DNA of 25,371 nucleotides from a virus: positions 1 through 25,371 of the IMG/VR virus record IMGVR_UViG_3300042121_000051; one strand, written 5' to 3'. A program made the position numbers and the translations under genes. The notes beneath the pieces were generated by a model. The model had not been told where the DNA came from and did no database searches. It saw nothing but the letters and a program-made list of their open reading frames with translations. Positions 138 through 18,132 of this stretch are shown in pieces; the first letter of the stretch is position 1, and every line of letters starts with the position of its first letter.

Positions 138-3100
138 ATGGCAAACGGCAACGAGAACAACGGTTTCGACCAACTGTTCCCTGCCGGCCTGCCTGCCGCA
201 CAGACAGGGGGCTTTCGCCCCCTTTTTGATACCGCTGCGAAAGCAGAACAGGTAGCGGCAGCTTCTGAAGACAAGAAGCAGTCTCTTATCGACAAGATGG
301 GTTACGACTACGACGACACCATTGGAATGGGCGTTAACCTCGCCGCTTCCCTTGCGTCCGGTGCCAGCCGCTTGGTTGGTAACCTCGCAACCCTTCCAGT
401 CGATTTGATCTCTGGTTTGGCCCAAGGCTCTGTACCTGAAGAACAGGTCCAGGCATTCAACCGTGTGCAAACTGGTCAAGCATCTGATGCTGACCGTGCA
501 TTGTTGAATCAAACTGCACCGTTTGAAGACGGTGTGCCGCAAACGTATCTGGAACGCCTGCAAGGCACCCAAGGTTTGCAAGAAGTCGGTCAGAACATCG
601 ACGATTTCTTCGATATCTCCAGCATCGTGGACACCACGGAGCGTGATCGCCTCAGTCGCGATATCCGGGAAGAAACTGCCGGTGGTGTTGCAGATCTGCG
701 CCGTGCCTCCGATGAATTCGAAGACGGCAAGTATCTCGACGCTGCGGTCACTGGTGTGACTGGTTTGGCTTCGACTGTGGGCAATGCGCTCGCAGCCGGT
801 GCATCCAATCCCCTGGCCACGACTGAGTACGTGGTAGAGAACATTCCACAACTGCTGGCTGCGGCCTACAGTGCCCCTTCTATGGTGGCCTCGAACGCCG
901 GTTACGGTTTCGACGCTTACCGTGAAGGTGTGCGCGAGTTCTTCGACAAGAACGAAGGCCAACTGCCAAACGCTGATCAGCGTGCGGAAATGGGTCTGTT
1001 CGCGGCATCTGCGGCACTGGCTGAGCAAGTCGGTGATGCAACCATGCTTCGTGGTTTCCGTAACGCCGGTACCGGTTCCGCCTCCAAGGCAATGGCCTCG
1101 GCTGCGGGTATCGGCGGTGCAATGACCCGTGAAGGTGTTACTGAAGGCTATCAGACCTACGCGGAAGCGCGGGCCAAGCTGGAAGACCCATCTTTGGAAG
1201 AGATCGTCGAAGGCGCCACTATTGGTGCGCTTGTCGGCGGTAATTTCCAAGGTGCTGTAGAACTGGCGAAAGCCGGTGCTCCAACAGAAGATGCTGGCAC
1301 ACGTGCTGCATCCGCTGAAGCTTTTACCGCTGCTGTTGAATCCGGTGATGTTTCGCCCCTGACCGATGCAGAATCCGCCACTTATAATCCGGTTCGTGCT
1401 GTTGAAGCACTGCACCAGATGAATCTGGCAGAAGGCGCTGATGTCGAGGCAAACCTCGCTCAAGTTGACCAAATTCAGCAAGATGTGACGGCTGATGTGT
1501 CGGCTCTGCAAGCCCGTCTGGAAAACACTTCCCCGGAAGCTGTGGCCCGGATCGGTTCGATCGTTTCTCAGCTTGAGGCCGCTGGTGCAGACCAAGCCCA
1601 AATCGCCGAGATGCGTGAGATCCATGAGGCTGTGTCGAGCTACACCCCAGAACAACGGAAAGCTGATGAGGCTCGCCTTGCTCAACTGGAAACCCAGTTG
1701 GGTGGCATTCATAAAGCAGCCGAGCGCATGCGCGTAGACGCCAGCCCTGAGCCGGCTGAAGTCGAAAGCATCGCTACTGAAGCACAGGCAGGTGATGTAC
1801 AGGCGGCTGACCGTCTGTTGACCCTGACCATGACCAACCCTGATTCCGTGGACACCCAGGTCGCTGATGCTCTTGCACAGAGTGAAGCCCTGTCTGAGCC
1901 GCAACGTATCGCCATGCGCCTTTTCAGCGAGGCTCAGGTGGCAACCAACGCCCTGAAAGGCCTTACTGGCGTACGTTCGGACATTGCCACTGGTGGCGAC
2001 GGTTTCAAAGGTATCTCGCAATATCGCAATGCAATCCGTATGGCCCTGGCCAATGGCAACGAAGGTGCAGCCCGCTCGCAAGTCGATGGCATCCGCGCAT
2101 TCGCAGCCAGCCGAGAGTCGAAACTGAACGCCATCACCGCTGCCTTCGAGCAAGTGAAGGGCACAGACAATTCGATCAATCTCGTGCGGAATCAGCAAGG
2201 TGAATGGGGTCCGACTGATCTGAAGGGCAAAGCCCTGAAGAAAGCCGGTGGTGTGGAAGTCTCGGCACGTTCTTTCAAGCTGCGCGACGGTGTGGCTGCG
2301 GAAGCTGACGTTTTGACCAAGACTGCTGCTGCATTCGAAGCTCTGGTAAATGCTGCTCCCACTCCTGTTTCGGCGCCGGTTGTGCAACCGACGGCTGAGG
2401 TACAGGGTGACGTTACCCCGGCAACTCCTGAAGCTGCGGCCACGCCTGCTGTTGAACCTGCATCGGTAGCTCCGGTAGCAGACGAAACACTTGCGTCCAC
2501 TGCACCTGACGAAGCTGCGATTACCCCAGAAGATGTCCCGAGCGTGACCGATAAGGCGCAGGCGAATGCCGGCCAACTCACCACAATCGGCGAGCGAACT
2601 GGTGCGGCGGTAACTGCCGACAACTACCGTTCTATCAATCTGGTTTCCGAGCTGTTTGAACAACAGGCCGGCAATGAGACTGATGCAAGCGTTCGCCCGC
2701 TGGTAGCTGTCAAAGACTTCGCTTCGGCCGTACAAGCCGGCGAAGTGCAGGCCAAGGACTTCATTGATCAAGAAGGTGACCTGACTGGCCCGCAAACCCA
2801 AGCCCTGAACGCTTTCTTTAACTTCGCGCAATACTCTGCGCAAGCGATCCGCGACCAGTTTAAGGTGACTGAAACTCGTGCCAAACGCCCGGACTTCTTC
2901 TATCGGGATATGGCGCAGTTCCTTCAGAACGCGGATGGGCAAATTGATGAGAACTTGGCGACTGCCGTCTCGTACGGCATGTTCTCCTGGGCCAACGAAA
3001 ACGCAACTCAACTGCGTAATTCTGACGAGGGTATCAACGCTATTCTGTTGAAAGAACTCGATTCTGAGATCTCGTCTGCTGCCTACAAAGAACTGTCGCT

Positions 3101-6100
3101 GATCGGTACGCGTGAAGCCGTGGTTGCCTCGCAACTCGGCGGACGTATCGTTCAAGCGATGGGTCTGCGACCAAACCAGCAAGGTACCAATGCCGAGCTG
3201 AGCAAGCTGGAAGCCTCTATCGGTGCCCGGGCTATCGCCGCCATGGTGAAGCTGAACATCGTTGAGCGTATCCAACTGCCAGACGTGAAACTTCAGGCAT
3301 TAATGAATTCTGGTGAGCAAGGCGACCCCCGCAAAAACCATGTCTTCGTCCGCGTAAAATCGGTTGAAGTGAATGGCAAGCGCGAGCCAGCTCCTATCGT
3401 CAAACGTATCCGTGAACGCAACGTCGGCTCGCAGTCGGTGGTTGCCAAACTGATGTCGGTTGAAGCGGCCGGTGTTGAACCGAGCTACACCCCGGTGAAG
3501 TTCGACCAGGCATTCGCCAAGCGCACTGGTCAAGCCGTCCCGAAAGGGCTGGCCGAGACACAGAATAAGGAAGGCGCCAAAGCTCACGTTGTTCGTCAGA
3601 ACATGTGGCATGTCTGGGGCCGACTGAGCAAGCAGGCGCTGTATGCAATGGGTGGTGTGGTGAGCACGTCCGATGCTCCGACTCACGTCGAGAATCTGGC
3701 TTCCCGCCAAGCGAAGAACGATGGGCTGATTCAGCAAGTCGAAAACTTCGACACCTTTATCAAGGCCATGGCTGCTGATTCGAGCACTGAAGGTCTGGAA
3801 CAGCCGCTGTACTTCGGCCGTTCGGTCTGGAAGCCTCAGCGTGTTGGTTTGACCGCCAACGTGGTGAATCCACAGACTTCGAAGATCCACCGTCACATGC
3901 TGGCCATGCAAGGTTGGAATGCGTCCGTCGAGCTGGCTGATGCTGCGTCGATGAACAACTTCAAGCTGCGTGTGCTGGAAGCGTTCGGCAAGAAGACTGA
4001 AGCGACCAATACCCCTGTTGTGCTGGCCGGTTACGACGCTGTCGTGTCGAATCCTGCAATTCAGGCGGGTATTGATGCGTTGGTCGACGTGCTGCGCGAT
4101 GTCGGCACTACCAACGAAGAAGCTATCGTTGCTGCGGTAAAAGCCGGTGGTGAGAACTTCCATTCGTTCGATGCACTGGTTGCCCTGGCTGAACAGCGTA
4201 TTGCTGAGCAGGACGGCAAGCCTTCGTTCGAAACGAGCATGATGGGTGAGGTTGACGGTGTCACCAACGGGCCAATGCTGTCCCTGCTGATGCTGGGCGC
4301 CAAAGGCTTCGAAACCATGAACCAAGGTGGGTTCTTCGAGCTGGAAAGCCCGTACTCGCAGTTCAATGACTTCCACGCGGTCGATGGCAACCTCGACCTG
4401 TATGAGTCGAACATTGCCGGTGCGTTGAACCGTCTGCAAGGCCGCAACGTCAACATGCTGCAAGCCATGCAGGTAATCACCGGCCAGTTGCAAACTGCCG
4501 AGGGTAACGTGACCTCCAAGGGTCGCAACATCATCAAGAAGCCTCTGACTGCACTGATGTTCGGGTCCAACCCGAAAACAGCGGTAGAAGGTATGGCTGA
4601 TGGTTTCGTTGAAGCGATTTACAGCCGTATCGAAGATGCTGCTGCGAACCGTGACAATGCGGCAATTACTGCACTGTTCTCCGCGGTCAATACCCTGATG
4701 CGTCTACCAAAGGCTGCACTGCCGGTAAACGCCGGCTACGAGCAGGCATTGGAAACCAAGCTGACCGAACAGCAGAAAACTGCGCTGAAGAAGTCGTTCT
4801 ATGAGCTGTTGGGTAAGCCAACTGAAGATGCCCTGGCGGATAACTACGCGACCTTCATTGCTCGCCGTAACGTGATCAACCAGACCGCACAACTGTCGTT
4901 TGACCTGTACAACGCGGTACGCGAAGGCGTCACCGAATTCGTTGAAGGTTCCAGCGCGGATGTGGCCCGCAACAATGCTGGTGAAGCGATTCGTACCCTG
5001 ACCAAAGAGCAATTGACCCAAGTCGATGCACTGATGGGTGATATGGCGCCGATCCTGCAAACTGCCATGTCTCAGGCGGCAGGTCAGCGTGAAGCGGGTA
5101 TGTACATGGCGAAGTCGCAGCGTAAGCTGGATTCCTCGCTGCCTTACGAACAAGAAGTCGCTTTCGGTGATCTGGTGAATACCATCGCACCGGACGGGCA
5201 ACTTCAAGGCATCGGTTCGTCGCGTGTGTCGTCTTCGCGTACTGAGGATATCGACCCGGGCGTAATGCCGTTCATTACCTCGATTCACTCTTCCGACTCC
5301 GCGATTGCCTCGGCAGTCTACGGTGAAATGGAAGCGCTCAACGTTCACGACGCCTTGGGTGTCGATCTGAACAATGTGGCGAAAGTGGGTCAAGAACTGA
5401 ACAAGGCTACCTTCGAAACCCTGCTGAACTATTCGTCGCCGACGGCCATGTCCAACATGTTGGATGAAGTGCTGGCTGGTGTCGCTAAAGCGATGCAGAA
5501 CCCGGATCTGGCCGCTCGCATCCAGCCAAAGTTGCGCGAGAAGATGATTCAGCGTGCTGAGAAGAAGCGCGGCGGTATTGCGCAGCAACTGACCGCTATC
5601 CGTGAAACTGCCCGTCAGGCAGACACCGATAAGCTGTCGATGATGGCTGAGCTGAAGGCAATCGGTCAGTACGCCACTGAAGGTGGTTCGTACGTGGTAA
5701 CCGACGCTGATCGCGAAGCTGCTGCCAAGAAACTGGCTGAGGTGGGCACTTCGTTCAATGAAGGCGCTGAATCTGTTGCTGAAATGCTGGACGTTGCTGC
5801 GGCTGTCGATTCTGCTGTGTATCAGCCGGGTCAACGCGCTGTGCTGGCCAACTCTTCGGTAACTACGCTGGCGCCGGCTACTTCCCTTAACACTCTGGCT
5901 TCGCTTGAGCAAACCAGTGCAGTTGAGCAGGTCATTGCTTCCATGGTTTCGGGTAACCGTACTCTGGGCGATGCTGTGCAGATTCTGCCTGAGCATCAAG
6001 CCGCCGAGGTGATCAACGCCGTAAACACTGCGTCTGAAGAGAAGCTGTCGGTATGGGGCCAGTTGGGTACCCCTGTGGTGCAATCTGACGTGAATCTGGT

Positions 6101-9100
6101 GGAACTGCTGTCGGGTAACAACCTGTCGGCGCACAACCTGATTGATTCGCTGGTTGCCTACAGCCAAGACCCGTTCCAGCGCACTGTGCTGCAAATGGCC
6201 AAGAAAGGTATCCCTGCTGGCGTGCGTGTGAACTACATCACCGCCGAGACTGGTCCTGAAGGTGCATTCGGTGAAGGTGTGGACAAATCCCGTGGTTGGT
6301 ACGCACAGCGTAACGGCACCGAGGCATTGTTCATCAAATCGCCTGAATTCGTTGAATCGGGTATCACTCCGGAGCTGTTGACCCACGAACTGGTACACGC
6401 TGCCCTGGCCAACTTGGTTGATCAGCATGATGGCGCCAATACGGTCGCCGGTCGTGCAGTGGCTGATCTGGAAAGCCTGCGGCAGATCGCTGACGAGTTC
6501 ATCGCCAACAACGGTGAGATGTCGGCACGCTTCCGCAATGCCGCCTCTAATGTGCATGAGTTGCTGGCCTGGGGCCTGACCAACAAGGCATTCCAGCGCG
6601 ATGTGCTGTCCCAAGTCCAAGTAGAGCAGCGTAACCGCAGCTTCCTCGACGGTCTGAAGACTTTCATCAGCAAGCTGACCACTCTGCTGTTCGGCGACAA
6701 TAAAGTGTCGGCAAACAACGGTATGGCCAACTTGGTAGCGAATGCTGCCGGTCTGTTTCAAGAAGCTGCCGCTGTACGCGATGCCCGTGCAACCAAGACG
6801 CACAAGTACGAAGATGCGGTCGATCACCTCAATGCCATGACGGCCGAGCAAGTGTTTGACGCACTGGCTTCGGTATCGGGTGTGCAAACGGATGTTCGCC
6901 ACGTTGAGTACCTGAAGAACCTGCTGGCTGAGACAGTTGACCCAGTCTATGGCCCTTACGGTGCATTTAAGGAGCAAGCGTCGGCAAACCGTGCGCTGAC
7001 TCCGCTGGATGTATTCCTGAAGGCTGTGAACACCGGCAAGCTGCCATTCAGTTCGGAAGCAACGGCCAATGCCTTTATCCTGTCGCAACAGGAAGCATTT
7101 GTACTGGAATCGGTCGAAGCCACCGTGGCCTTTGCCATGGAGCACAAAGACACGCTGTTCGTGCGCCAAGCGCTGGAAGATTTGTTCAAGGAAGCACGAG
7201 CGACCCTGAACAAAGATGGCCGCAACTTCCACAAGGGAATCTGGGCTACCGCAAGCCAGAATGAGAAGGATATCGCCAAAGCGAAATGGGACTTCGTGTT
7301 CCGTCCGCAAGCGGGCATCACCGGCAAGAATGCTTACCTATCGCGCTTTGCAGCGTTGGGTCTGGCCTCGGCTGAAGTACGCAACGTACTGGCGTTCTCT
7401 ACGGCGAATCTGGAAACCCCACTGAAGGAACTGCCGTGGGCCAGCCGCCTGACCGAGCTGTTCCGTCGTCTGATGCAACGCCTGTCCTCGTTGATGACCA
7501 AGGTCACCCCGGGCATGGCGGGCAATCAGGCACTGCGTACCCTGGTCGAAGACCTGGTGGATATCGAAGCCAAGCGTAAAGCACGCATGGGCCAAGACAA
7601 GCTGGGCTCGCTCGACCAGATCGAGACGGTGCTGACGGCAGCGGGTGAAACCGTGCGCGAGAAAGCGGATGCTTTCGGGCAGTCGAAATTCTTCCGCAAC
7701 TCCCGTATCCCGGGCGTTCCGTTTGTGGGTGCAGCGATCTCGACACTGGCTGGCGACCGTCTGGATGACGTGCTGGAGCACATCAACACCACCCGCGACC
7801 ATTACATGAAAAGCCGGCAGGGCTTGGCTACCGGTCTGCTCAGCGAGTGGCGTGGTGTCTACGACTCCCGTCGTCTGGCGGCTGAGCTGTTCAAAGGCGC
7901 CAAGGCCATCGAGCAAGAGCGTAAAGCGGTAATCGAGAACACGGCTCAGGCTGTGAACGAGGCTTTCGCCAACCAAGGGCAGGATCTGACCCAGGACCAG
8001 CGCGATGCACTGACCAAGGTGTTCTTGCGTACCAACGCTCAGGCCATCGCCGAGGTAAAAGGTGTGTCCGGGCTTCGCGATCTGATGGAAGATCCGGCGC
8101 AAATGGCTGCGTACCGCGCCGATCTGGAAGCTCAGGTCACGGCGATGTCGGGCAATGCCCGGTACATGATCAGCCAGACCAAGGACTTGGCGCACCACAA
8201 GGTGATTGGTGGTTCGACCTCGGCCAACCTGATGCTGTCGACCGGCAACATCGCGGCCATGTACGGCACCAAAAAAGCTGGGCAGGATGCTCATCTTATT
8301 GCTGGTTTGACGCCGTTGCTGGAGCAGTTGGTGGGTGTGTATGCACTGGCTTACTCCGGTGATGTCGACCTGAACAATGCGAAGCAAGTGCTGCGTACCG
8401 AGATGAACCGTCAAGACGGTGGCAACGGTGTCGAGTTCATGCTGAAGCTGCACACAGGTCTGCAAACCAAGGCGACCAAGGAGCTGTTCGCTGGTACCGA
8501 AGCGCTGCAACAGACCGGTTATGTGGCCGAGATCCATGACAACAAGATCGAAGTGTTGCTGGTCGATCAACGTGACGTGGAAGCTCACCAGCGCGCTGGG
8601 TACACCGTAGGCACCCGTCTGCAGATGGACCCGAACGTGAAGGCGCTGCAAGGCGGTTCGCGTGTCCTGATGACCCGTAGGGGCTCTGGCCAGAACGCCC
8701 TGTTGACCGGCGCCATGTCGTTCACCGGAATGAACGCCAAAGGGTCGAGCCCGGTCACTGAAGCGCTGAACATGATGCAGGGCACGCAGACCACGTCGGC
8801 TGCCGTACGCCAGCAGATTGCAGCGGCCAAAGCCGGGGCAATCGCTGACTTGTTCAACCGTGGTTCGAATTACGACCCGCGCAATGCCCAAGCAGGGCAC
8901 ATGGCCCCCACCCTGGCGCCTGACGGTCGCATAGCTGACTACCGTCACCTGATGGTCGAACACAATCGCGATGTCCTGTTGGACCGCGATAATTCGATGG
9001 ATCAGGTGATGGGAGTCATGGCCGGTCAGATTGCGGACAAGGTGTCGTCTGCTGCGCAGAACGCGGATGTGGTGCGGTCGATGTACGACCAGTACCGTGC

Positions 9101-10292
9101 GGACTACACGTCGCGCCCAGCTTCGTACTTGCGTGTGGCTGCGGATAGCAATGATGCAACGCTGGCTGAGGCATACCGCCTGCTGCCAGAAAGCACCAAG
9201 CGTGAAATCAAGAAGGTGTGGAAAGAAGACGCGATGTATGTGCCGGCTGACCAAATCGATCTGATTTTTGGCTACCGTAAGTTCAGTTTGACCAATGCGT
9301 TCGCTGCGCTGCCGACTGACCGTAACTTGATGGAAAAGACCCTTGTAGGGATCACTTCCGCCATGTTCGGTGAGAAAGCTGCACTGCGCGTCGGGCAAGC
9401 CGAAGACATCATGCAAGCACTGGTCAAAGAGATGAAGGACATCCTCGTTGTGAAAAACGTGATGACTTTGGCCGGCAACATCATGTCCAACATGACATTG
9501 CTCGCTTGGGAAGGGGTTCCGTTGCAGAAGGCGATCTCTTCGCACGCAATCGCAATCAAAGGGGCTATCGACTACCGTAAGGATTCGAAACGCCTGATGC
9601 AGTTGCAGCAATCGGTTGAGATCGGCTACTTAGCGGATACTGAAGCGGCTGAGGTGGAAATGGTGGAATTGCGGGATCGTTTGGCGCGTAACCCGATCAA
9701 ACCGCTGATTGATGCCGGACTTATGCCGACAATCGTAGAAGACGTTGAAGTTGACGATAATCGCTACACCTACAAGGCTCACTTGGAGCACAAGGTGGAA
9801 CGGTTCACTTCTAAGGTGCCAGCCTGGATGCGTGCGGTCGGTCGTCAGGTCTACATGACGCATGACACTGCAACCTACAAGTTCCTGAGCCAATCGACCC
9901 AGTTGTCCGACTTGGTGTCTCGTTATGCGCTCTATGAGCACGCAACGACTCGCCGGAAAGATCCGCTGAGCAAAGCTGATGCATTGCGTCTCGCCGAGGA
10001 CAGTTTCGTAAACTACGACCTGCCTTCGCACCGTACCCTGCAATATCTCAACGATATGGGTATTGTGATGTTCACCAAGTATTACCTACGGATTCAGAAG
10101 GTAATCATGCGTTTGGTGAAAGAGCGTCCTGCACGTGGCCTGATTCTGGTGGCGCTGGAGCATTACCTGTCTGGTTTGCAGTCGGTGCTGGATTCGAGCT
10201 GGACGAACAAGATCGGCAACAATCCGCTGCAAGATGGGGCACTTGGTTACCTTGGCTCGTTGAAAGAGCTTCCGGCAATCAAACTGCTCTGA
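138..10292 (+). CDS. Giant virion RNA polymerase (N4 vRNAP-like), 3384 aa
   Basis: Likely a DNA-dependent RNA polymerase packaged in the virion and injected with the genome to transcribe early genes. Polymerase motifs of the T7/N4 single-subunit family lie in the middle third: a TxxGR-like segment around T1247-R1252, motif A EVDGVTNG (D1373), motif B RNIIKKPLTALMFG (R1463, K1467, F1475, G1476; pattern Rx3Kx7[Y/F]G) and motif C NVHDALG (H1737, D1738). Their spacing is close to that of N4 vRNAP. A Pro/Ala-rich linker at about 735-805 separates an N-terminal domain with Gly/Ala-rich amphipathic stretches. A zinc-peptidase motif HELVH (2083-2087) with a possible third ligand in HELLAW (E2141) lies after the polymerase part. 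The remaining ~1200 residues are unassigned, probably for packaging or injection. The ATG follows GGGGAT with 8-base spacing. The length matches N4 vRNAP (about 3500). Polymerase identity is fairly sure; the protease role is inference. Confidence 0.88.
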   Translation: MANGNENNGFDQLFPAGLPAAQTGGFRPLFDTAAKAEQVAAASEDKKQSLIDKMGYDYDDTIGMGVNLAASLASGASRLVGNLATLPVDLISGLAQGSVPEEQVQAFNRVQTGQASDADRALLNQTAPFEDGVPQTYLERLQGTQGLQEVGQNIDDFFDISSIVDTTERDRLSRDIREETAGGVADLRRASDEFEDGKYLDAAVTGVTGLASTVGNALAAGASNPLATTEYVVENIPQLLAAAYSAPSMVASNAGYGFDAYREGVREFFDKNEGQLPNADQRAEMGLFAASAALAEQVGDATMLRGFRNAGTGSASKAMASAAGIGGAMTREGVTEGYQTYAEARAKLEDPSLEEIVEGATIGALVGGNFQGAVELAKAGAPTEDAGTRAASAEAFTAAVESGDVSPLTDAESATYNPVRAVEALHQMNLAEGADVEANLAQVDQIQQDVTADVSALQARLENTSPEAVARIGSIVSQLEAAGADQAQIAEMREIHEAVSSYTPEQRKADEARLAQLETQLGGIHKAAERMRVDASPEPAEVESIATEAQAGDVQAADRLLTLTMTNPDSVDTQVADALAQSEALSEPQRIAMRLFSEAQVATNALKGLTGVRSDIATGGDGFKGISQYRNAIRMALANGNEGAARSQVDGIRAFAASRESKLNAITAAFEQVKGTDNSINLVRNQQGEWGPTDLKGKALKKAGGVEVSARSFKLRDGVAAEADVLTKTAAAFEALVNAAPTPVSAPVVQPTAEVQGDVTPATPEAAATPAVEPASVAPVADETLASTAPDEAAITPEDVPSVTDKAQANAGQLTTIGERTGAAVTADNYRSINLVSELFEQQAGNETDASVRPLVAVKDFASAVQAGEVQAKDFIDQEGDLTGPQTQALNAFFNFAQYSAQAIRDQFKVTETRAKRPDFFYRDMAQFLQNADGQIDENLATAVSYGMFSWANENATQLRNSDEGINAILLKELDSEISSAAYKELSLIGTREAVVASQLGGRIVQAMGLRPNQQGTNAELSKLEASIGARAIAAMVKLNIVERIQLPDVKLQALMNSGEQGDPRKNHVFVRVKSVEVNGKREPAPIVKRIRERNVGSQSVVAKLMSVEAAGVEPSYTPVKFDQAFAKRTGQAVPKGLAETQNKEGAKAHVVRQNMWHVWGRLSKQALYAMGGVVSTSDAPTHVENLASRQAKNDGLIQQVENFDTFIKAMAADSSTEGLEQPLYFGRSVWKPQRVGLTANVVNPQTSKIHRHMLAMQGWNASVELADAASMNNFKLRVLEAFGKKTEATNTPVVLAGYDAVVSNPAIQAGIDALVDVLRDVGTTNEEAIVAAVKAGGENFHSFDALVALAEQRIAEQDGKPSFETSMMGEVDGVTNGPMLSLLMLGAKGFETMNQGGFFELESPYSQFNDFHAVDGNLDLYESNIAGALNRLQGRNVNMLQAMQVITGQLQTAEGNVTSKGRNIIKKPLTALMFGSNPKTAVEGMADGFVEAIYSRIEDAAANRDNAAITALFSAVNTLMRLPKAALPVNAGYEQALETKLTEQQKTALKKSFYELLGKPTEDALADNYATFIARRNVINQTAQLSFDLYNAVREGVTEFVEGSSADVARNNAGEAIRTLTKEQLTQVDALMGDMAPILQTAMSQAAGQREAGMYMAKSQRKLDSSLPYEQEVAFGDLVNTIAPDGQLQGIGSSRVSSSRTEDIDPGVMPFITSIHSSDSAIASAVYGEMEALNVHDALGVDLNNVAKVGQELNKATFETLLNYSSPTAMSNMLDEVLAGVAKAMQNPDLAARIQPKLREKMIQRAEKKRGGIAQQLTAIRETARQADTDKLSMMAELKAIGQYATEGGSYVVTDADREAAAKKLAEVGTSFNEGAESVAEMLDVAAAVDSAVYQPGQRAVLANSSVTTLAPATSLNTLASLEQTSAVEQVIASMVSGNRTLGDAVQILPEHQAAEVINAVNTASEEKLSVWGQLGTPVVQSDVNLVELLSGNNLSAHNLIDSLVAYSQDPFQRTVLQMAKKGIPAGVRVNYITAETGPEGAFGEGVDKSRGWYAQRNGTEALFIKSPEFVESGITPELLTHELVHAALANLVDQHDGANTVAGRAVADLESLRQIADEFIANNGEMSARFRNAASNVHELLAWGLTNKAFQRDVLSQVQVEQRNRSFLDGLKTFISKLTTLLFGDNKVSANNGMANLVANAAGLFQEAAAVRDARATKTHKYEDAVDHLNAMTAEQVFDALASVSGVQTDVRHVEYLKNLLAETVDPVYGPYGAFKEQASANRALTPLDVFLKAVNTGKLPFSSEATANAFILSQQEAFVLESVEATVAFAMEHKDTLFVRQALEDLFKEARATLNKDGRNFHKGIWATASQNEKDIAKAKWDFVFRPQAGITGKNAYLSRFAALGLASAEVRNVLAFSTANLETPLKELPWASRLTELFRRLMQRLSSLMTKVTPGMAGNQALRTLVEDLVDIEAKRKARMGQDKLGSLDQIETVLTAAGETVREKADAFGQSKFFRNSRIPGVPFVGAAISTLAGDRLDDVLEHINTTRDHYMKSRQGLATGLLSEWRGVYDSRRLAAELFKGAKAIEQERKAVIENTAQAVNEAFANQGQDLTQDQRDALTKVFLRTNAQAIAEVKGVSGLRDLMEDPAQMAAYRADLEAQVTAMSGNARYMISQTKDLAHHKVIGGSTSANLMLSTGNIAAMYGTKKAGQDAHLIAGLTPLLEQLVGVYALAYSGDVDLNNAKQVLRTEMNRQDGGNGVEFMLKLHTGLQTKATKELFAGTEALQQTGYVAEIHDNKIEVLLVDQRDVEAHQRAGYTVGTRLQMDPNVKALQGGSRVLMTRRGSGQNALLTGAMSFTGMNAKGSSPVTEALNMMQGTQTTSAAVRQQIAAAKAGAIADLFNRGSNYDPRNAQAGHMAPTLAPDGRIADYRHLMVEHNRDVLLDRDNSMDQVMGVMAGQIADKVSSAAQNADVVRSMYDQYRADYTSRPASYLRVAADSNDATLAEAYRLLPESTKREIKKVWKEDAMYVPADQIDLIFGYRKFSLTNAFAALPTDRNLMEKTLVGITSAMFGEKAALRVGQAEDIMQALVKEMKDILVVKNVMTLAGNIMSNMTLLAWEGVPLQKAISSHAIAIKGAIDYRKDSKRLMQLQQSVEIGYLADTEAAEVEMVELRDRLARNPIKPLIDAGLMPTIVEDVEVDDNRYTYKAHLEHKVERFTSKVPAWMRAVGRQVYMTHDTATYKFLSQSTQLSDLVSRYALYEHATTRRKDPLSKADALRLAEDSFVNYDLPSHRTLQYLNDMGIVMFTKYYLRIQKVIMRLVKERPARGLILVALEHYLSGLQSVLDSSWTNKIGNNPLQDGALGYLGSLKELPAIKLL
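206..227 (+). terminator. Intrinsic terminator inside the vRNAP reading frame
   Basis: A perfect 7-bp stem AGGGGGC/GCCCCCT with a TTTC tetraloop is followed by four more T residues (five counting the last stem base). It lies 68 bases into the vRNAP coding sequence and encodes residues of the segment TGGFRPLF. By sequence it is as good a rightward intrinsic terminator as the one at the end of the gene. Whether translating ribosomes suppress it cannot be told from sequence. Confidence 0.7.
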
Positions 10293-10295
10293 AAT

Positions 10296-10325
10296 AAAAA
10301 AGCCCCCTAGTTTGGGGGCTTTTTC
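10296..10325. terminator. Bidirectional intrinsic terminator between convergent genes
   Basis: The stem AGCCCCC/GGGGGCT (10301-10307 and 10314-10320) has the 6-base loop TAGTTT. It is flanked by an A-run on the left and a T-run on the right, so each strand shows a U-tract after the hairpin. It begins just after the vRNAP stop codon, and the stop codon of the leftward membrane-protein gene sits partly in its loop. It should end both the rightward virion transcript and the leftward operon. Confidence 0.9.
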
Positions 10326-10516
10326 TTTGCGTCGAACACGAACTCTTTGATCGCTGCCCAAACCAGAAAGACAATGAAGACAAGTACGCAGAGCAATGCC
10401 CCCAAGAAGGCAATGATCTTGAACACGTACCCAAACACCACGAATGTCGTGATCAGGGCGAGCAGCGCGCCGATCCCGAAAAATATTCCCAGAATCAGCC
10501 GTGCTGCCCGGATCAA
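10307..10516 (-). CDS. Small two-helix membrane protein, 69 aa
   Basis: Unidentified. The protein is mostly hydrophobic, with two likely transmembrane segments (about residues 6-30 and 33-55) and a positively charged end, DAKKKPPN. Size and topology would allow a holin-like or membrane-associated early function, but nothing specific supports that. The start is a TTG whose last two bases are shared with the TGA of the upstream gene (TTGA overlap). There is no good Shine-Dalgarno sequence, so expression probably depends on translational coupling. It is the last gene of the leftward block, and its stop lies in the bidirectional terminator. Confidence 0.6.
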   Translation of the reverse strand: MIRAARLILGIFFGIGALLALITTFVVFGYVFKIIAFLGALLCVLVFIVFLVWAAIKEFVFDAKKKPPN

Positions 10517-10863
10517 TGCCGTACTGGGGATTTGATCATCACGGCTCGCCCGAGGGGGAGGTCGTCGAGGTACAAAGTGCCGGTGGCCGGGTCAATGTGC
10601 CAACCTTTAGGTTGATTCCCGGTAGCTGTAGCAGCCTGGGGTTTCACGTCTTCTGGCGCACCTTTAGATTCACCCGGCGAAGCGTGGCCAGCATTGCCAG
10701 CCTGACCGGACACTTTCGGTTCTTCGAACAGTTTTGCAGCAGCTTTTGCTAGAGTCGAGGCTTCAGCGCTTTGATTGATGCCATAAAGCATCTTTGCAGC
10801 ACTTGCCAGCATATTCGCCGCTTGGGCGTGTGCAAGCAGAGCTTCGTCGCAGATTTGGCACAT
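10513..10863 (-). CDS. Hypothetical protein with N-terminal CxxC, 116 aa
   Basis: Unidentified. It begins MCQICDEA, a CxxC pair at residues 2-5. An Ala-rich probable helix follows (residues 8-45), then a Gly/Ala/Pro/Lys-rich linker and a short C-terminal segment GWHIDPATGTLYLDDLPLG. The open frame extends upstream to 11031, but I chose the ATG at 10863 because AAGGA lies at a good distance before it and the upstream extension runs through a 23-bp inverted repeat with no coding character. The two cysteines could bind metal only together with others, since no second pair exists; oligomerisation or a redox role is equally possible. It overlaps the downstream membrane-protein gene by four bases, so the two are translationally coupled. 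Confidence 0.65.
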   Translation of the reverse strand: MCQICDEALLAHAQAANMLASAAKMLYGINQSAEASTLAKAAAKLFEEPKVSGQAGNAGHASPGESKGAPEDVKPQAATATGNQPKGWHIDPATGTLYLDDLPLGRAVMIKSPVRH

Positions 10864-10884
10864 ATTGCATTCCTTCTGTTGGTG

Positions 10885-10961
10885 GGTGTTCTGGAAGTAC
10901 ATCTGCCGTCGCTTCCCATGGCAACACTCATTCAGAGTGGCAGATGTACCACCAGAACACC
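10885..10961 (-). repeat. 23-bp imperfect inverted repeat in the leader of the CxxC gene
   Basis: Arms 10885-10907 and 10939-10961 match at 21 of 23 positions around a 31-base spacer. Read on the leftward strand, the two non-matching positions become one U-U mismatch and one G-U wobble. On the rightward strand they are A-A and A-C. This favours a function as leftward RNA. The stem ends about 21 bases before the ATG at 10863 and leaves the AAGGA ribosome site outside. Confidence 0.75.
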
Positions 10962-11012
10962 ATCCAAGTGCAAACCTCTCCGAAGAGTCAGCTTGCGGGG
11001 ATAATGTTCCGG

Positions 11013-11029
11013 GAAAGTTACCAACTTTC
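11013..11029 (+). promoter_or_regulatory. Candidate vRNAP hairpin promoter (rightward)
   Basis: A perfect 7-bp stem GAAAGTT/AACTTTC encloses the 3-base loop ACC; on the template strand the loop is GGT. Known N4 early promoters are template-strand hairpins with a 5-7 bp stem and 3-base loop (GGA in P2), with transcription starting 11 bases from the loop centre. Here that rule gives a G at 11032, the start of the hairpin-dense region. No convincing sigma-70 boxes lie at the same place. The assignment is inference from architecture. Confidence 0.4.
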
Positions 11030-11242
11030 AAGTTTATAGGTTATTAGTCACAAACTTGCTCGTTTGTGCATACCGGACTTCGGCGTTCGGTATGTTGTGC
11101 TGTGCTTCGATAACCCCTTCCCATCAGCGGTAAGGGGAACGCAATTGCGGCTAACTTGCTCGCTCGCGTACCACATTTCAATAGATGAATACTTGGGGCT
11201 TACTCGCCCCATGTTTCCTGATTTGTCAGTTAACAATGCCCT

Positions 11243-11340
11243 AGGAGGCATTGGGGAGCAATTTGCCTACAGTGCTGCGCCATATCGATAGCTTCGTGCC
11301 CTCGGCACCCGATCTGGCAAATTGCTCCCCAATACCACCT
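11243..11340 (+). repeat. 25-bp inverted repeat within the structured region
   Basis: Arms 11243-11267 and 11316-11340 pair at 23 of 25 positions; the inner 18 bp (11250-11267 with 11316-11333) are perfect. The 48-base spacer holds a small hairpin at 11296-11308. The outer part of this stem uses the same bases as two alternative local stems (11234-11253 and 11328-11334/11382-11388), so two folds are mutually exclusive. Confidence 0.8.
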
Positions 11341-11647
11341 CTACACTTGCCATGTGCAAGCACATCACAGTTACAGAGGGATATTGGGTTCGATCTTATG
11401 TTCGAACAGACATACCGACTATATGCCAGTCGGGTCAGCAGCCCCTGCCCGGGGTCAGGGTTTAAGAGGCACCTCAGCATTGTTTCTGCACCTGCTGTAG
11501 CTAACAGCGTTTCTGTGTCCAGAAGAGGTGCCATAAATACGGCTCGTTGTTTTTCAAGCATGACACAGCATAAATGCTGAGTATTACTCGCCAACTTCAG
11601 TTGGTTTTGCTGTTCAGTACCGATCACAGCATTATTCGTTCTTTATT

Positions 11648-11687
11648 TACAGGAGTCCGAATGACACAGTCCCCTCCTGTATTTTTT
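11648..11687 (+). terminator. Rightward intrinsic terminator ending the structured region
   Basis: The stem TACAGGAG/CTCCTGTA (8 bp; 11648-11655 and 11674-11681) is followed directly by six T residues (11682-11687). The 18-base loop is long but can form an inner GAC/GTC pair. The opposite strand has no U-tract after the stem, so it works only rightward. It stops transcription nine bases before the 3' end of the convergent leftward gene. Confidence 0.65.
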
Positions 11688-11699
11688 ATACTGGTTTAG
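11661..11699 (+). CDS. Possible 12-residue peptide MTQSPPVFFILV overlapping the terminator
   Basis: An AGGAG is placed six bases before an ATG that opens 12 codons and a TAG. The frame runs through the terminator stem and its T-tract. It could be a leader peptide, but the AGGAG is also the 5' arm of the terminator stem and the short ORF may be chance. Nothing downstream on this strand would be controlled by it. Confidence 0.15.
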   Translation: MTQSPPVFFILV

Positions 11700-11899
11700 T
11701 CCAGTTCCGAACGCATCTCGCTTCTAGGAGCCCAACCGTTGCTGGTTTTCACCATGCAGCCGATTGAGCCGCTGAAGCGCACATTGCGCTCAGTTTGGTA
11801 GCCGTACCACTCACACTTGCTCCAGCCGATCCCGTAGCCGATGGCCACGATAACGAGCACCAGAATAAGGATGGGCAGTACGACTTTTCCGTTGCGCAC
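11696..11899 (-). CDS. Small single-pass membrane protein, 67 aa
   Basis: Unidentified. A short basic N-terminus (MRNGK) is followed by one strong transmembrane helix (about residues 6-26, VVLPILILVLVIVAIGYGIG). A ~40-residue soluble part carries two cysteines (in KCEWYG and IGCMVK) that could form a disulfide if it faces the periplasm. The start is a GTG directly after the TAA of the TerB-like gene, with AAAGG seven bases upstream inside that gene's end. The pairing with the TerB-like protein suggests they act together at the membrane. It is the last gene of the main leftward operon; beyond it lies the antisense strand of the structured RNA, and I see no leftward terminator there. Confidence 0.65.
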   Translation of the reverse strand: MRNGKVVLPILILVLVIVAIGYGIGWSKCEWYGYQTERNVRFSGSIGCMVKTSNGWAPRSEMRSELD

Positions 11900-12346
11900 T
11901 TAGGCGCCTTTGCGGATTTCGAAGTGCTCTTCGCTCAGGCGATAGCCCAGCTCACGCGCCACTTCTTCGATCACCTTGCGCTCGGCCGGCTCGATTTCAC
12001 CGTCCGACTTCGCGATGGCCAGGATGTTGAGGACCACGTCTTCAACGTGTTCATCGTTGCCCTGGATGTCGCGCAGCTCACGCAGGATTTTGCTACGGCC
12101 GACCAAGAAGTCGCCATCCAGCAGATCGCTGAAACGACGAATGGTCTTGCCGATTTCGGCACCGAAGTGCTTCAGGTTTTCGTTACCCGAGATGAGCTTT
12201 TCGAGCTTGTTCAGCTCGTCCTTCTCGATGTCACCATCAGCAGCGGCGACCAGCAGGCCACCGCCAACGATGGCTTCCATCAGGTCACGGTTTTCAACTT
12301 TCTTGGCCCCACGGAACAGCTTGCCAGCGAATTTACCGAACATCAT
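11900..12346 (-). CDS. TerB-like (tellurite-resistance TerB family) protein, 148 aa
   Basis: An all-helical protein resembling the TerB fold. It shows two similar acidic segments, AADGDIEKDELNKLEKLI (about residues 34-51) and AKSDGEIEPAERKVIEEVA (about 110-128), typical of the TerB family, whose paired acidic residues can bind metal. The N-terminus is basic (GKFAGKLFRGAKK). TerB proteins are linked to membrane-associated stress and phage-defence systems in bacteria; the role in a phage is unknown. Two consecutive ATG codons exist. The first (12346) overlaps the previous stop as ATGA; the second (12343) has the better spacing to AAGGA. It is followed without a gap by the small membrane protein. 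Confidence 0.7.
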   Translation of the reverse strand: MMFGKFAGKLFRGAKKVENRDLMEAIVGGGLLVAAADGDIEKDELNKLEKLISGNENLKHFGAEIGKTIRRFSDLLDGDFLVGRSKILRELRDIQGNDEHVEDVVLNILAIAKSDGEIEPAERKVIEEVARELGYRLSEEHFEIRKGA

Positions 12347-15975: not shown

Positions 15976-18132
15976 TTAAGGGCGGGCTGCCAGCTCTTTG
16001 CCGACAGTGACCATGATAGAGCCAAGAATCTCGGCTTCGGACAGCTTGTCGGCCAACTTATCGTTGAGCGATGTGACGCAGTCCTTGATCTCCGCCCAGT
16101 TCTTCCCGGCTTCGATCAACAAACGGGCATAGCGGTGCAGCATGACATTACGGTTGCCGTCACCCGTGTTGTTGATGATCCAGCGCTCGAGATTGTCCAT
16201 TTGCTGCTGGGAACCCAGCCGCTGAAGACGTTCTTCGTTTTTACTGGTTTTCGGGATGAAGGGCAGGACATCAAACAGCTCGCCCTCGGTTTGCTCGAAG
16301 TGAGCGCCATGCGACATCCACTTCTTGCTCCGGTGAGTACAGGACTCATCCACTTCGAACGGCAGGGATTCCAGCACGTTCTTCATGAATTCCTTGTATT
16401 CCTTCGCGTCCATTTGCAGGACGTAGTTCGTCGGAAGAACAATGCGGAACCGGTTTGCATCGTCGGTGTGACGCTTGGTCGTGTAGTAGATCGCCGAATA
16501 ATCTTTCATCAGCATCTTCGCCGTGGACAAGTTCATCGTCCCGTCGATATCCAACACGATCATGTTGAAGCCGGGGATACAGGTATCCTCGGTACGATGG
16601 CCACCGTGAACATGGTGATTAAGCCAGTGCAGGTCAGTTCCTGTGACAAGACGTTCCAGTTGAGTCCATGGGGCAGTCTTGTTTGCGTAACCATGCGCCG
16701 GGTGTTCACCGGCACCGCCACGGGCATACGACACCACCATCTTGGTCAGGTCAGTGACCTTCAGCTTCTCGCCGCGCAGGAACTCAATCCCGTCGGTGAA
16801 AGCTTTCTTGATGATGACGTTGTTCTTGTAGCCCCAGGCGATTGCCATCTTGACCATGTCGGCCCGCGATGCCTGACTGCCCTTGTAATAGGGCAAGTCT
16901 TGCATCAGGTCCGGCTCGGTCACTTCCGTGCCACAGTTGCCCAGATAGTTCGCCAGCTTTACGTATGGGCGTTCACGAGACAGCAGAAGCTCGAAGGCCT
17001 TACCGCTTTCTTCAGCCAGTCGAACTGCTTGGTAGAAATGCGTCTCCGTCAGCTCCGGGGAGCCGTCGATGAATGCATAGGCACCAGCAGCCTTCAGGGC
17101 TTTGAAATATCGGTGAGAGATTTCCGCTTTGCGTTGTTCTTCGTGTTCGGGCAGGGCATCAGCCAAACGCTCGCAGTCGATCTTGTACTGGATCACCAGC
17201 AAGCTGGTTTCCTTGGTCATGGTCAACACAGTGTTCATGTTGTGCGAATCGGCCAAGTAACCCAGTTTTTCGCTGAAGTTTTCCACGAACGTGGACGAAA
17301 CCTTGTTCGTCATGCGGTCGTAGATTTCTTCAGCCGACAGGGTCAGATCGCGGGTGCTTTCTTTACCATAACTGAAGAAACAGCGGCGAGCGTAGCCGGT
17401 ATCGAGCAATGAAATCAGCTCGTCTTCCGTCTTGCCACCATCGAGCAATTTCGACGGTGTGCCGAACATCATGAGGTTCGTCGGCGTGTTGCCGTCGATT
17501 TCCTCGTGACGGACGTTCTCGGCAGTCACTTTGGTGATCTTCTGACGAATGCCGCCCATATCGAACAATTCCAGCAGTGTTGTGAGCACTTCGGAACTGG
17601 ACGACAGGTTGGAACCGATTTCGTCGATGATCAGGTTGACTGCGCCCGCATCTGCGAGCAACAGCTTGTGACGCATCTGCTTTACCGCAGCCGGGGTACC
17701 GGAGTCGAAGCTATAAACCAGAGGGCCAAGGGAGGCGAACTCCTTCTTGATTTTCTCCAGCTCGAAGTCGTATTCCGTCGAATCCCGTGACGAGCGACGC
17801 AGCGCCAGCTTTTCGAGATGCGGTTCAGCAGTGAACGGGAAGTTTTCGAGGAAACGGGTACGGAATTGGTTGGTGATTTCCTTTTCCAGAATGTTCGTCG
17901 AGAAGCCTTTACCGGCACCGGATGTGGCGAGGTTCAGCGCGTACATGTTGACCGGGATGTCACCCCGATCATGGGTGCGGATCAATACCCGCATCTGTGA
18001 TGCAATCATGCACAGGTGGAACGTCGTCAACACGCGGAAGAACAAATGGTTCGAACTCTGCGTCTTTTCACACAGAATGCGCACCACGTCCTCCACTTCG
18101 GGGTTATACGACATGTCTTCGACAGCTTTCAT
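15976..18132 (-). CDS. Helicase-primase (N4 gp43-like), 718 aa
   Basis: Likely unwinds DNA and makes primers at the phage fork. The N-terminal half is a P-loop ATPase resembling DUF3987-type helicases: Walker A ATSGAGKG (69-76), Walker B LIIDE (167-171), and an arginine pair GYARRCFF (247-253) that may act as a finger. The C-terminal half resembles an archaeo-eukaryotic primase: VLDIDG with D528 and D530, TTKRH (551-555) in the place of the sxH motif, RFRIVLP (561-567) and DESCTHRSKKW (595-605). A PriCT-like tail follows (GNRNVMLHRYARLLIEAG, 659-676). ATG 18132 has GGAG six bases upstream. The gene is downstream of the nuclease with a 16-base gap. Helicase-then-primase order is unusual. Fusion assignment is from motifs only. 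Confidence 0.75.
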   Translation of the reverse strand: MKAVEDMSYNPEVEDVVRILCEKTQSSNHLFFRVLTTFHLCMIASQMRVLIRTHDRGDIPVNMYALNLATSGAGKGFSTNILEKEITNQFRTRFLENFPFTAEPHLEKLALRRSSRDSTEYDFELEKIKKEFASLGPLVYSFDSGTPAAVKQMRHKLLLADAGAVNLIIDEIGSNLSSSSEVLTTLLELFDMGGIRQKITKVTAENVRHEEIDGNTPTNLMMFGTPSKLLDGGKTEDELISLLDTGYARRCFFSYGKESTRDLTLSAEEIYDRMTNKVSSTFVENFSEKLGYLADSHNMNTVLTMTKETSLLVIQYKIDCERLADALPEHEEQRKAEISHRYFKALKAAGAYAFIDGSPELTETHFYQAVRLAEESGKAFELLLSRERPYVKLANYLGNCGTEVTEPDLMQDLPYYKGSQASRADMVKMAIAWGYKNNVIIKKAFTDGIEFLRGEKLKVTDLTKMVVSYARGGAGEHPAHGYANKTAPWTQLERLVTGTDLHWLNHHVHGGHRTEDTCIPGFNMIVLDIDGTMNLSTAKMLMKDYSAIYYTTKRHTDDANRFRIVLPTNYVLQMDAKEYKEFMKNVLESLPFEVDESCTHRSKKWMSHGAHFEQTEGELFDVLPFIPKTSKNEERLQRLGSQQQMDNLERWIINNTGDGNRNVMLHRYARLLIEAGKNWAEIKDCVTSLNDKLADKLSEAEILGSIMVTVGKELAARP

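Follow-up and report, generated by a model that had tools for sequence, protein, structure and literature searches.

Shizishanvirus/Littlefixvirus-type Pseudomonas phages carry a large structured noncoding RNA within their leftward middle-gene operon, and covariance models built from it (R1 and R2) point to a new RNA family with covarying helices and a single-copy, syntenic location on the operon strand. In the window, the 25,371-base virus record analyzed here, the whole structured region spans about 830 bases (10864-11695, minus strand), from the upstream ORF's stop codon to the downstream gene's start codon, limits set by the flanking coding sequences rather than by transcript ends. Fold z-scores, an ORF-poor gap in relatives and the balance of G-U against A-C pairs delimit the region, and comparative sequence analysis shows its RNA-level structure, strand, conservation and single-copy syntenic location. 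As to function, we infer with modest confidence that this RNA, about 0.65-1 kb in size, is released from the operon transcript and acts in trans.

Genomic setting of the RNA

The window is a fragment of a Pseudomonas-type Schitoviridae (N4-like) genome; among named phages, the Pseudomonas phage phCDa comes nearest (Shizishanvirus; primase 87%). On the plus strand, the gene for an N4-type virion RNA polymerase (vRNAP; 138-10292) is faced by leftward middle genes on the minus strand, including those for a primase (15976-18132) and for Sak4-like, SSB, RuvC-like and TerB proteins. Between the convergent vRNAP gene and middle operon lies a perfect 11-bp inverted repeat (AAAAAGCCCCC/GGGGGCTTTTT, 10297-10324) that looks like a bidirectional terminator. 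The structured RNA sits within the operon between a 67-aa ORF (11696-11899, minus) and a 116-aa ORF (10513-10863, minus; ATG start), the latter encoding a small CxxC protein of unassigned family for which a Pfam search gave no match. A small protein is encoded downstream of the RNA in every lineage, and the upstream gene varies among lineages while the RNA persists. Comparing these proteins across the two phage groups revealed no homology (hhalign probability 1%), and they need not form a single family. The TerB-like gene upstream in the operon (11900-12346, minus; PF05099, E 3e-12) has no counterpart beside the RNA in phCDa or L005 by blastn.

A tRNA search of the window found none. In relatives, tRNA genes are encoded on the RNA's strand and either adjoin its region or lie inside it (L004, L005, L007, L011, L013, L014, L020 and L029). 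L007 carries an intact tRNA-Arg(UCU) gene within the RNA region (8387-8462, minus), which recalls the tRNAs in the GOLLD linker. Littlefix (L013) has two T-arm-like pieces (GGTTCGATTCC) between the 3' strands b and c described below (8692-9022, minus); these resemble incomplete tRNAs incorporated into the RNA.

Folding, strand and absence of coding capacity

The dense local stems described in an earlier note on this DNA are real. The stretch 11032-11690 folds with z-scores of -8.9 (minus) and -7.2 (plus), and on neither strand did any of 20 dinucleotide shuffles fold as well. The closed multi-branch element at 11468-11532 and the long stems reported there are also borne out, for example the 25-nt stem formed by 11243-11267 and 11316-11340 (92%). 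In a scan of the whole window (674 segments of 150 nt), 10876-11100 and 11251-11400 were among the strongest segments. The extent first proposed, 11032-11687, was too narrow: structure without ORFs continues from 11695 down to 10864 and takes in a hairpin with 29-nt arms at 10879/10967, where segments reach z-scores of -6 to -7. The absence of a credible gene was confirmed. All four longest ORFs, on both strands, are interrupted in relatives by stops or frameshifting indels (gap lengths include 1, 4, 7, 37, 62 and 119), and a coding region was rejected since none of the four survives.

Pair composition indicates that the structured RNA is read from the minus strand. Read in this direction, the helices contain 52 G-U against 0 A-C cells in the core and 46 against 3 in the 3' domain, and some G-U pairs are invariant. 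These counts and invariant pairs exclude the rightward strand preferred in the earlier note, and the plus-strand RNA was rejected. The putative rightward terminator near 11649-11690 lacks its T-run in some relatives; on the minus strand, its bases make up the RNA's 5' hairpin and candidate pseudoknot. The supposed vRNAP-like hairpin promoter (11049-11068) combines a 7-bp stem with a 6-nt loop, unlike vRNAP promoters; the early promoters predicted for LUZ7, LIT1 and PEV2 precede genes 1, 12 and 13 and are built of 4-5 nt stems with 3-nt loops (PMC3715699). Early expression by an injected vRNAP is consequently unsupported, because the locus belongs to the leftward middle-gene operon and the hairpin geometry is not that of a promoter. 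Both the vRNAP promoter and a conserved rightward terminator were rejected. What stands of the original reading is a large ornate phage RNA, now backed by abundant covariation; its strand, boundaries and early-promoter story were wrong.

Covariation and family models

In about a dozen distinct genomes, the corresponding locus is a gap poor in ORFs and roughly 0.6-1 kb long. Relatives were gathered from vRNAP-anchored loci and phage records, and an alignment of the 3' 240 nt of ten sequences yielded 59 consensus pairs, 15 of them changed on both sides. For the core alignment, this ten-sequence work was extended with L007, L011, Littlefix (L013), L014 and 98PfluR60PP (L029). The 3' core comprises 24 pairs in 12 sequences with 97.9% of cells paired and 14 of the 24 pairs double-changed, so that the compensatory changes the earlier note had suggested seeking in relatives are indeed found. 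None of 500 shuffles was as good, and at most 48% of cells paired when the sequences were slid. The sequences of alignment A5 were hand-cut at helix ends, which somewhat favors the a:b helix, but the slid and shuffled controls are clear.

Outside its building set, model R1 matches 98PfluR60PP (4e-9), Littlefix (9e-7), L011 (2e-6) and L007 (3e-4), in each case at the same locus and on the same strand, and these four represent the independent finds. R1 also matches phCDa, which was part of its building set, and R2 was built from all twelve sequences; matches of this kind hold by construction. R2 gives one strong match per genome, syntenic and on the operon strand. The core thus occurs in phCDa, Littlefix, 98PfluR60PP and uncultured relatives, a modest number of independent lineages (two groups, about a dozen genomes). 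Neither model matches LUZ7, PEV2, LIT1 or other N4-like phages. Among vRNAP-linked loci of other N4-like phages no member outside the Shizishanvirus/Littlefixvirus-type clade was found, and scanning viral and genome contigs for patterns before applying R2 returned only members of the same clade. An alphaproteobacterial contig (L260; R2 E 0.03) had been picked by a model-derived pattern and was treated as a chance match. Among the papers searched, none describes this RNA; the report on 98PfluR60PP lists one tRNA and does not mention an ncRNA (PMC6325676).

Alternative pairing of three strands at the 3' end

Comparative and folding analyses show a conserved 3' domain in which one strand, b, can pair with either of two others, a or c (all positions on the minus strand). 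Strand a (CCGGAACAUUAUCC, 10999-11012) follows stem 3 (GAAAGUUGGUAACUUUC, 11013-11029), in which 97.2% of cells are paired and 5 of 6 pairs are double-changed. The pairing of a with b (GGAUGGUGUUCUGG, 10952-10965) holds in 12/12 sequences, and 6 of its 10 pairs are double-changed across the family; taken by itself, the ten-sequence set shows weak a:b covariation, with one double-changed pair. The two strands flank a hairpin (GCAAGCUGACUC..GAGAGGUUUGC, 10970-10996) that is 100% paired and contains G-U pairs (39-59 and 41-57) invariant in 12/12. Strand b is common to a:b and b:c. With strand c (CCAGAACACCCACC, 10881-10894) it forms part of a terminal branched hairpin with conserved CCACUC..GAGUGUUGCCAUGGGAAGC (10879-10967), b:c being 99.5% paired with four double-changed pairs. 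A C-to-U change in b is accompanied by G-to-A changes in both a and c (columns 152, 96 and 217). In predicted folding ensembles of 9/9 sequences, 9.5-14 a:b pairs are expected without c, and with c present a is displaced, leaving 0-0.5 a:b and 9.4-12 b:c pairs. Strand c lies 126-142 nt downstream of b in L011, L013 and L029 and about 57 nt downstream elsewhere. The ribosome-binding site AGAAGGA (10871-10877) begins 3 nt after strand c and the downstream gene starts 17 nt after it. Between the RNA and this gene, the minus strand has no terminator-like site.

Exchangeable modules in the 5' part

The 5' hairpin (ACAGGAG...CUCCUGU, 11649-11680, minus, as for all features below) is 92.9% paired in alignment A8 with two double-changed pairs. 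Its loop AUUCG (11658-11662) may form a pseudoknot with CGAAU (11634-11638). This candidate (11634-11662) is 100% paired in six relatives with one U-A to U-G change, and the covariation support is weak as the pairing is largely invariant. A stem UGCUGU/ACAGCA around an invariant GAUCGGUACUGA (11608-11631) shows a C-G to G-C double change in L006/L020, and the adjoining hairpin CCAACUGAAGUUGG (11591-11604) is 100% paired in six relatives. The most conserved block (11380-11433; 92-100% identity over 35-86 nt in relatives) consists of hairpin CCGACU../AGUCGG (11415-11433) and hairpin GUUCGAACAUAAGAUCGAAC (11388-11407), followed by CCCAAUAUC, strand x1.

Two sequence cassettes recur on unrelated stems. 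Cassette I (AGAAACG-stem-GCAGGURCAGAAACAAUG, or AGAAACG...ACAGAAACAAUG) is borne by the GGCACCUC/GAGGUGCC stem of the multi-branch element (11468-11532). In the window, as in L002 and L005, the hairpin that carries it lies on the 5' side of the conserved block. In L003, L012, L006 and L020 it occupies a different position, the apex of the central hairpin, on unrelated stems. In the window this central long hairpin (11235-11340; arms 11243-11267/11316-11340), the ends of which can pair alternatively as x1:x2 and x3:x4 hairpins, bears cassette II (CGAUAUGGCGCAG) at its apex. Cassette II (CGAURURGCGCAG) is likewise found on different stems and positions, both cassette counts resting on simple patterns. 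The arms of the central hairpin have been swapped wholesale and are still complementary in L002, L003, L004, L006, L009 and L012. Taken together, these comparisons indicate that modules are exchanged under selection for structure. The loop of a hairpin at 11235-11252 contains a self-complementary CCUAGG, kept in L002, L004, L005 and L012, which is a possible kissing-dimer site.

Hairpins with a GAGYAA-type hexaloop are a further hallmark. The window contains UGGGGC-GAGUAA-GCCCCA (11194-11211) and CACAAAC-GAGCAA-GUUUGUG (11049-11068), the latter replaced in relatives by UGCGAGC..GCUCGCG or UGUGUGC..GCACACA. Using the pattern C-[GA]A[GA][CU][AGU]A-G with a stem of at least 5 bp, 23 sense and 1 antisense hexaloop hairpins were counted in 16 RNA regions, with 1-3 per RNA. 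This amounts to 1.6/kb in sense against 0.01/kb elsewhere, a roughly 170-fold enrichment. Another hairpin (CCCCUU...AAGGGG, 11115-11138), taken from the consensus fold prediction, is invariant in close relatives. A hairpin with conserved CCGAAGUC (11069-11094) keeps its stem pairs in alignment A1 with single breaks, most pairs being double-changed, and its spacing to the next conserved hairpin is fixed at 91-92 nt.

Comparison with known large RNAs

Searches with Rfam models, the check proposed in the earlier note, gave no match to the large RNAs. At gathering thresholds nothing credible was found in the window or its relatives, GOLLD and ROOL included, and at E<=10 the best window matches, a miRNA family (E 0.67) and Pistol (E 1), were not credible. 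The GOLLD model (RF02032) at E<=10 found no match in the window or in 9 records. The ROOL model (RF03087) did not match the window, and a further search of the records was silent, as it was for its control genomes.

GOLLD is phage-borne, with tRNA genes nearby and a conserved 3' region next to a more variable 5' region (PMC12286853). The new RNA resembles it in being phage-borne, in its similar size and in having tRNA genes nearby in relatives, one of them inside the region, although the window fragment itself has none. It also shares the conserved 3' and less conserved 5' organization, the core being common to both groups and the 5' modules being replaced. In contrast to GOLLD, it bears hairpins with hexaloops, cassettes that have been exchanged and a strand exchange at its 3' end, is not matched by the GOLLD model and was found here only in Shizishanvirus/Littlefixvirus-type N4-like phages. 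ROOL (659 nt for env-120) occurs in phages near tRNAs and has an ornate fold and an unsettled function (PMC12286853). The new RNA is similar in size, setting and ornate folding but is not matched by the ROOL model. Like the new RNA, the large OLE RNA, with its protein partner OapA, directly adjoins a small protein gene. That pair is found in different organisms, and here the RNA has no Rfam match and the neighboring protein no Pfam match.

Few structured RNAs of very large size are known from phages, and there is no settled view of their role. The present family, without an Rfam match, is carried by isolated, cultivable phages (phCDa, Littlefix and 98PfluR60PP), which makes deletion, probing and infection time courses practicable. 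Three-strand exchange and cassettes on unrelated stems offer handles on the folding and evolution of such RNAs.

A proposed function in trans and its alternatives

We propose that the RNA is made from the minus strand within the leftward middle-gene transcript. As the polymerase leaves the 5' part, its hexaloop hairpins and exchangeable cassettes would fold in turn, and strand a would first pair with b around the CUGAC/GAGAGG hairpin. Emerging c would then take b from a, giving a long duplex beside the ribosome site of the downstream gene. This b:c duplex probably sets the 3' boundary of the RNA, for example as a cut site for a double-strand (RNase III-type) RNase. Cleavage would free a stable RNA working in trans, perhaps a scaffold or a self-assembling particle of the kind suggested for GOLLD and ROOL, with the neighboring CxxC protein as a possible partner. 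A role in trans is favored because the upstream gene varies while the RNA persists, because the cassettes move independently and because tRNA genes of relatives share the RNA's strand, as for GOLLD and ROOL (PMC12286853). Since no promoter or terminator bounding a discrete RNA was found, the RNA may be just part of an mRNA. More speculatively, it could be a third self-assembling or scaffold RNA of lytic phages besides GOLLD and ROOL, in which recombination moves cassettes between variable arms and the conserved co-transcriptional strand exchange times release or assembly.

The chief alternative is an elaborate cis-acting leader, in which the a/b/c exchange would serve as a riboswitch-like, thermosensor-like or translation-coupling timer platform for expression of the downstream gene and the 5' modules would tune it. 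In every case the exchange element precedes a gene for a small protein, an arrangement that suits cis-regulation and speaks against action in trans; mutually exclusive helices are classical leader anatomy, and strand c ends immediately ahead of AGAAGGA. The pairings leave this ribosome site uncovered in both states and make no terminator, however, and some 600-700 nt of conserved or exchanged upstream structure far exceeds what a leader needs. Nor do the two groups share detectable homology in their downstream proteins. We regard a leader as possible but doubtful. Several small RNAs processed from one transcript and acting alone, for example as RNA or protein sponges, would explain why modules shift as units between positions and why the hexaloop is present up to three times. 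The rigid order and spacing of the 3' domain and the preservation of the whole as one block in every relative make such a reservoir unlikely.

A role of the palindromes as DNA, in replication, packaging or as single-stranded vRNAP hairpin promoters with the RNA being incidental, draws on the dense inverted repeats on both strands and on the use of DNA hairpins by N4-type vRNAP (PMC3715699). Selection on duplex DNA would not produce the strong G-U over A-C bias, the loops are 6 rather than 3 nt and the locus is not early (PMC3715699); this reading is very improbable. We give equally little credence to a degenerate array in which decayed phage tRNA genes left the stems behind. The tRNA genes beside or inside the region in eight relatives and the T-arm-like pieces of Littlefix are in keeping with such decay, but the window has no tRNA, hexaloops and cassettes are unlike tRNA arms, and the stems are maintained by compensatory change instead of decaying.

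Other structured stretches at the same locus

Additional N4-like genomes contain structured sequence at this position. L038 has a gap at the locus without a match to the models. In the uncultured L010 (7898-8808) and L023, a 0.9-kb ORF-free structured stretch (z -5.7, minus) is unmatched by R1 and R2; its features include a loop resembling GAGUAA and, ahead of a ribosome site, a long terminal hairpin. In PEV2 (Litunavirus), the gp67/67.1 region at the same locus and strand is structured over about 0.4 kb (z -6.6, minus), and its record annotates an overlapping ORF as 'Very strongly transcriptionally expressed'. In contrast to the new RNA, the PEV2 element has a terminator-like hairpin (AGCCAGCU..AGCUGGCUUUCUU). 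Because neither R1 nor R2 matches it, its expression lends positional support only. Smaller structured stretches of this type are present in PEV2 (L030, 7884-8290), LIT1 (L251, 552-959) and LUZ7 (L056, 6496-6764). They share a GGACUCUUUUUA motif and a terminator-like AGCCAGC..GCUGGCUUUCUU, and likely represent a separate or distant RNA.
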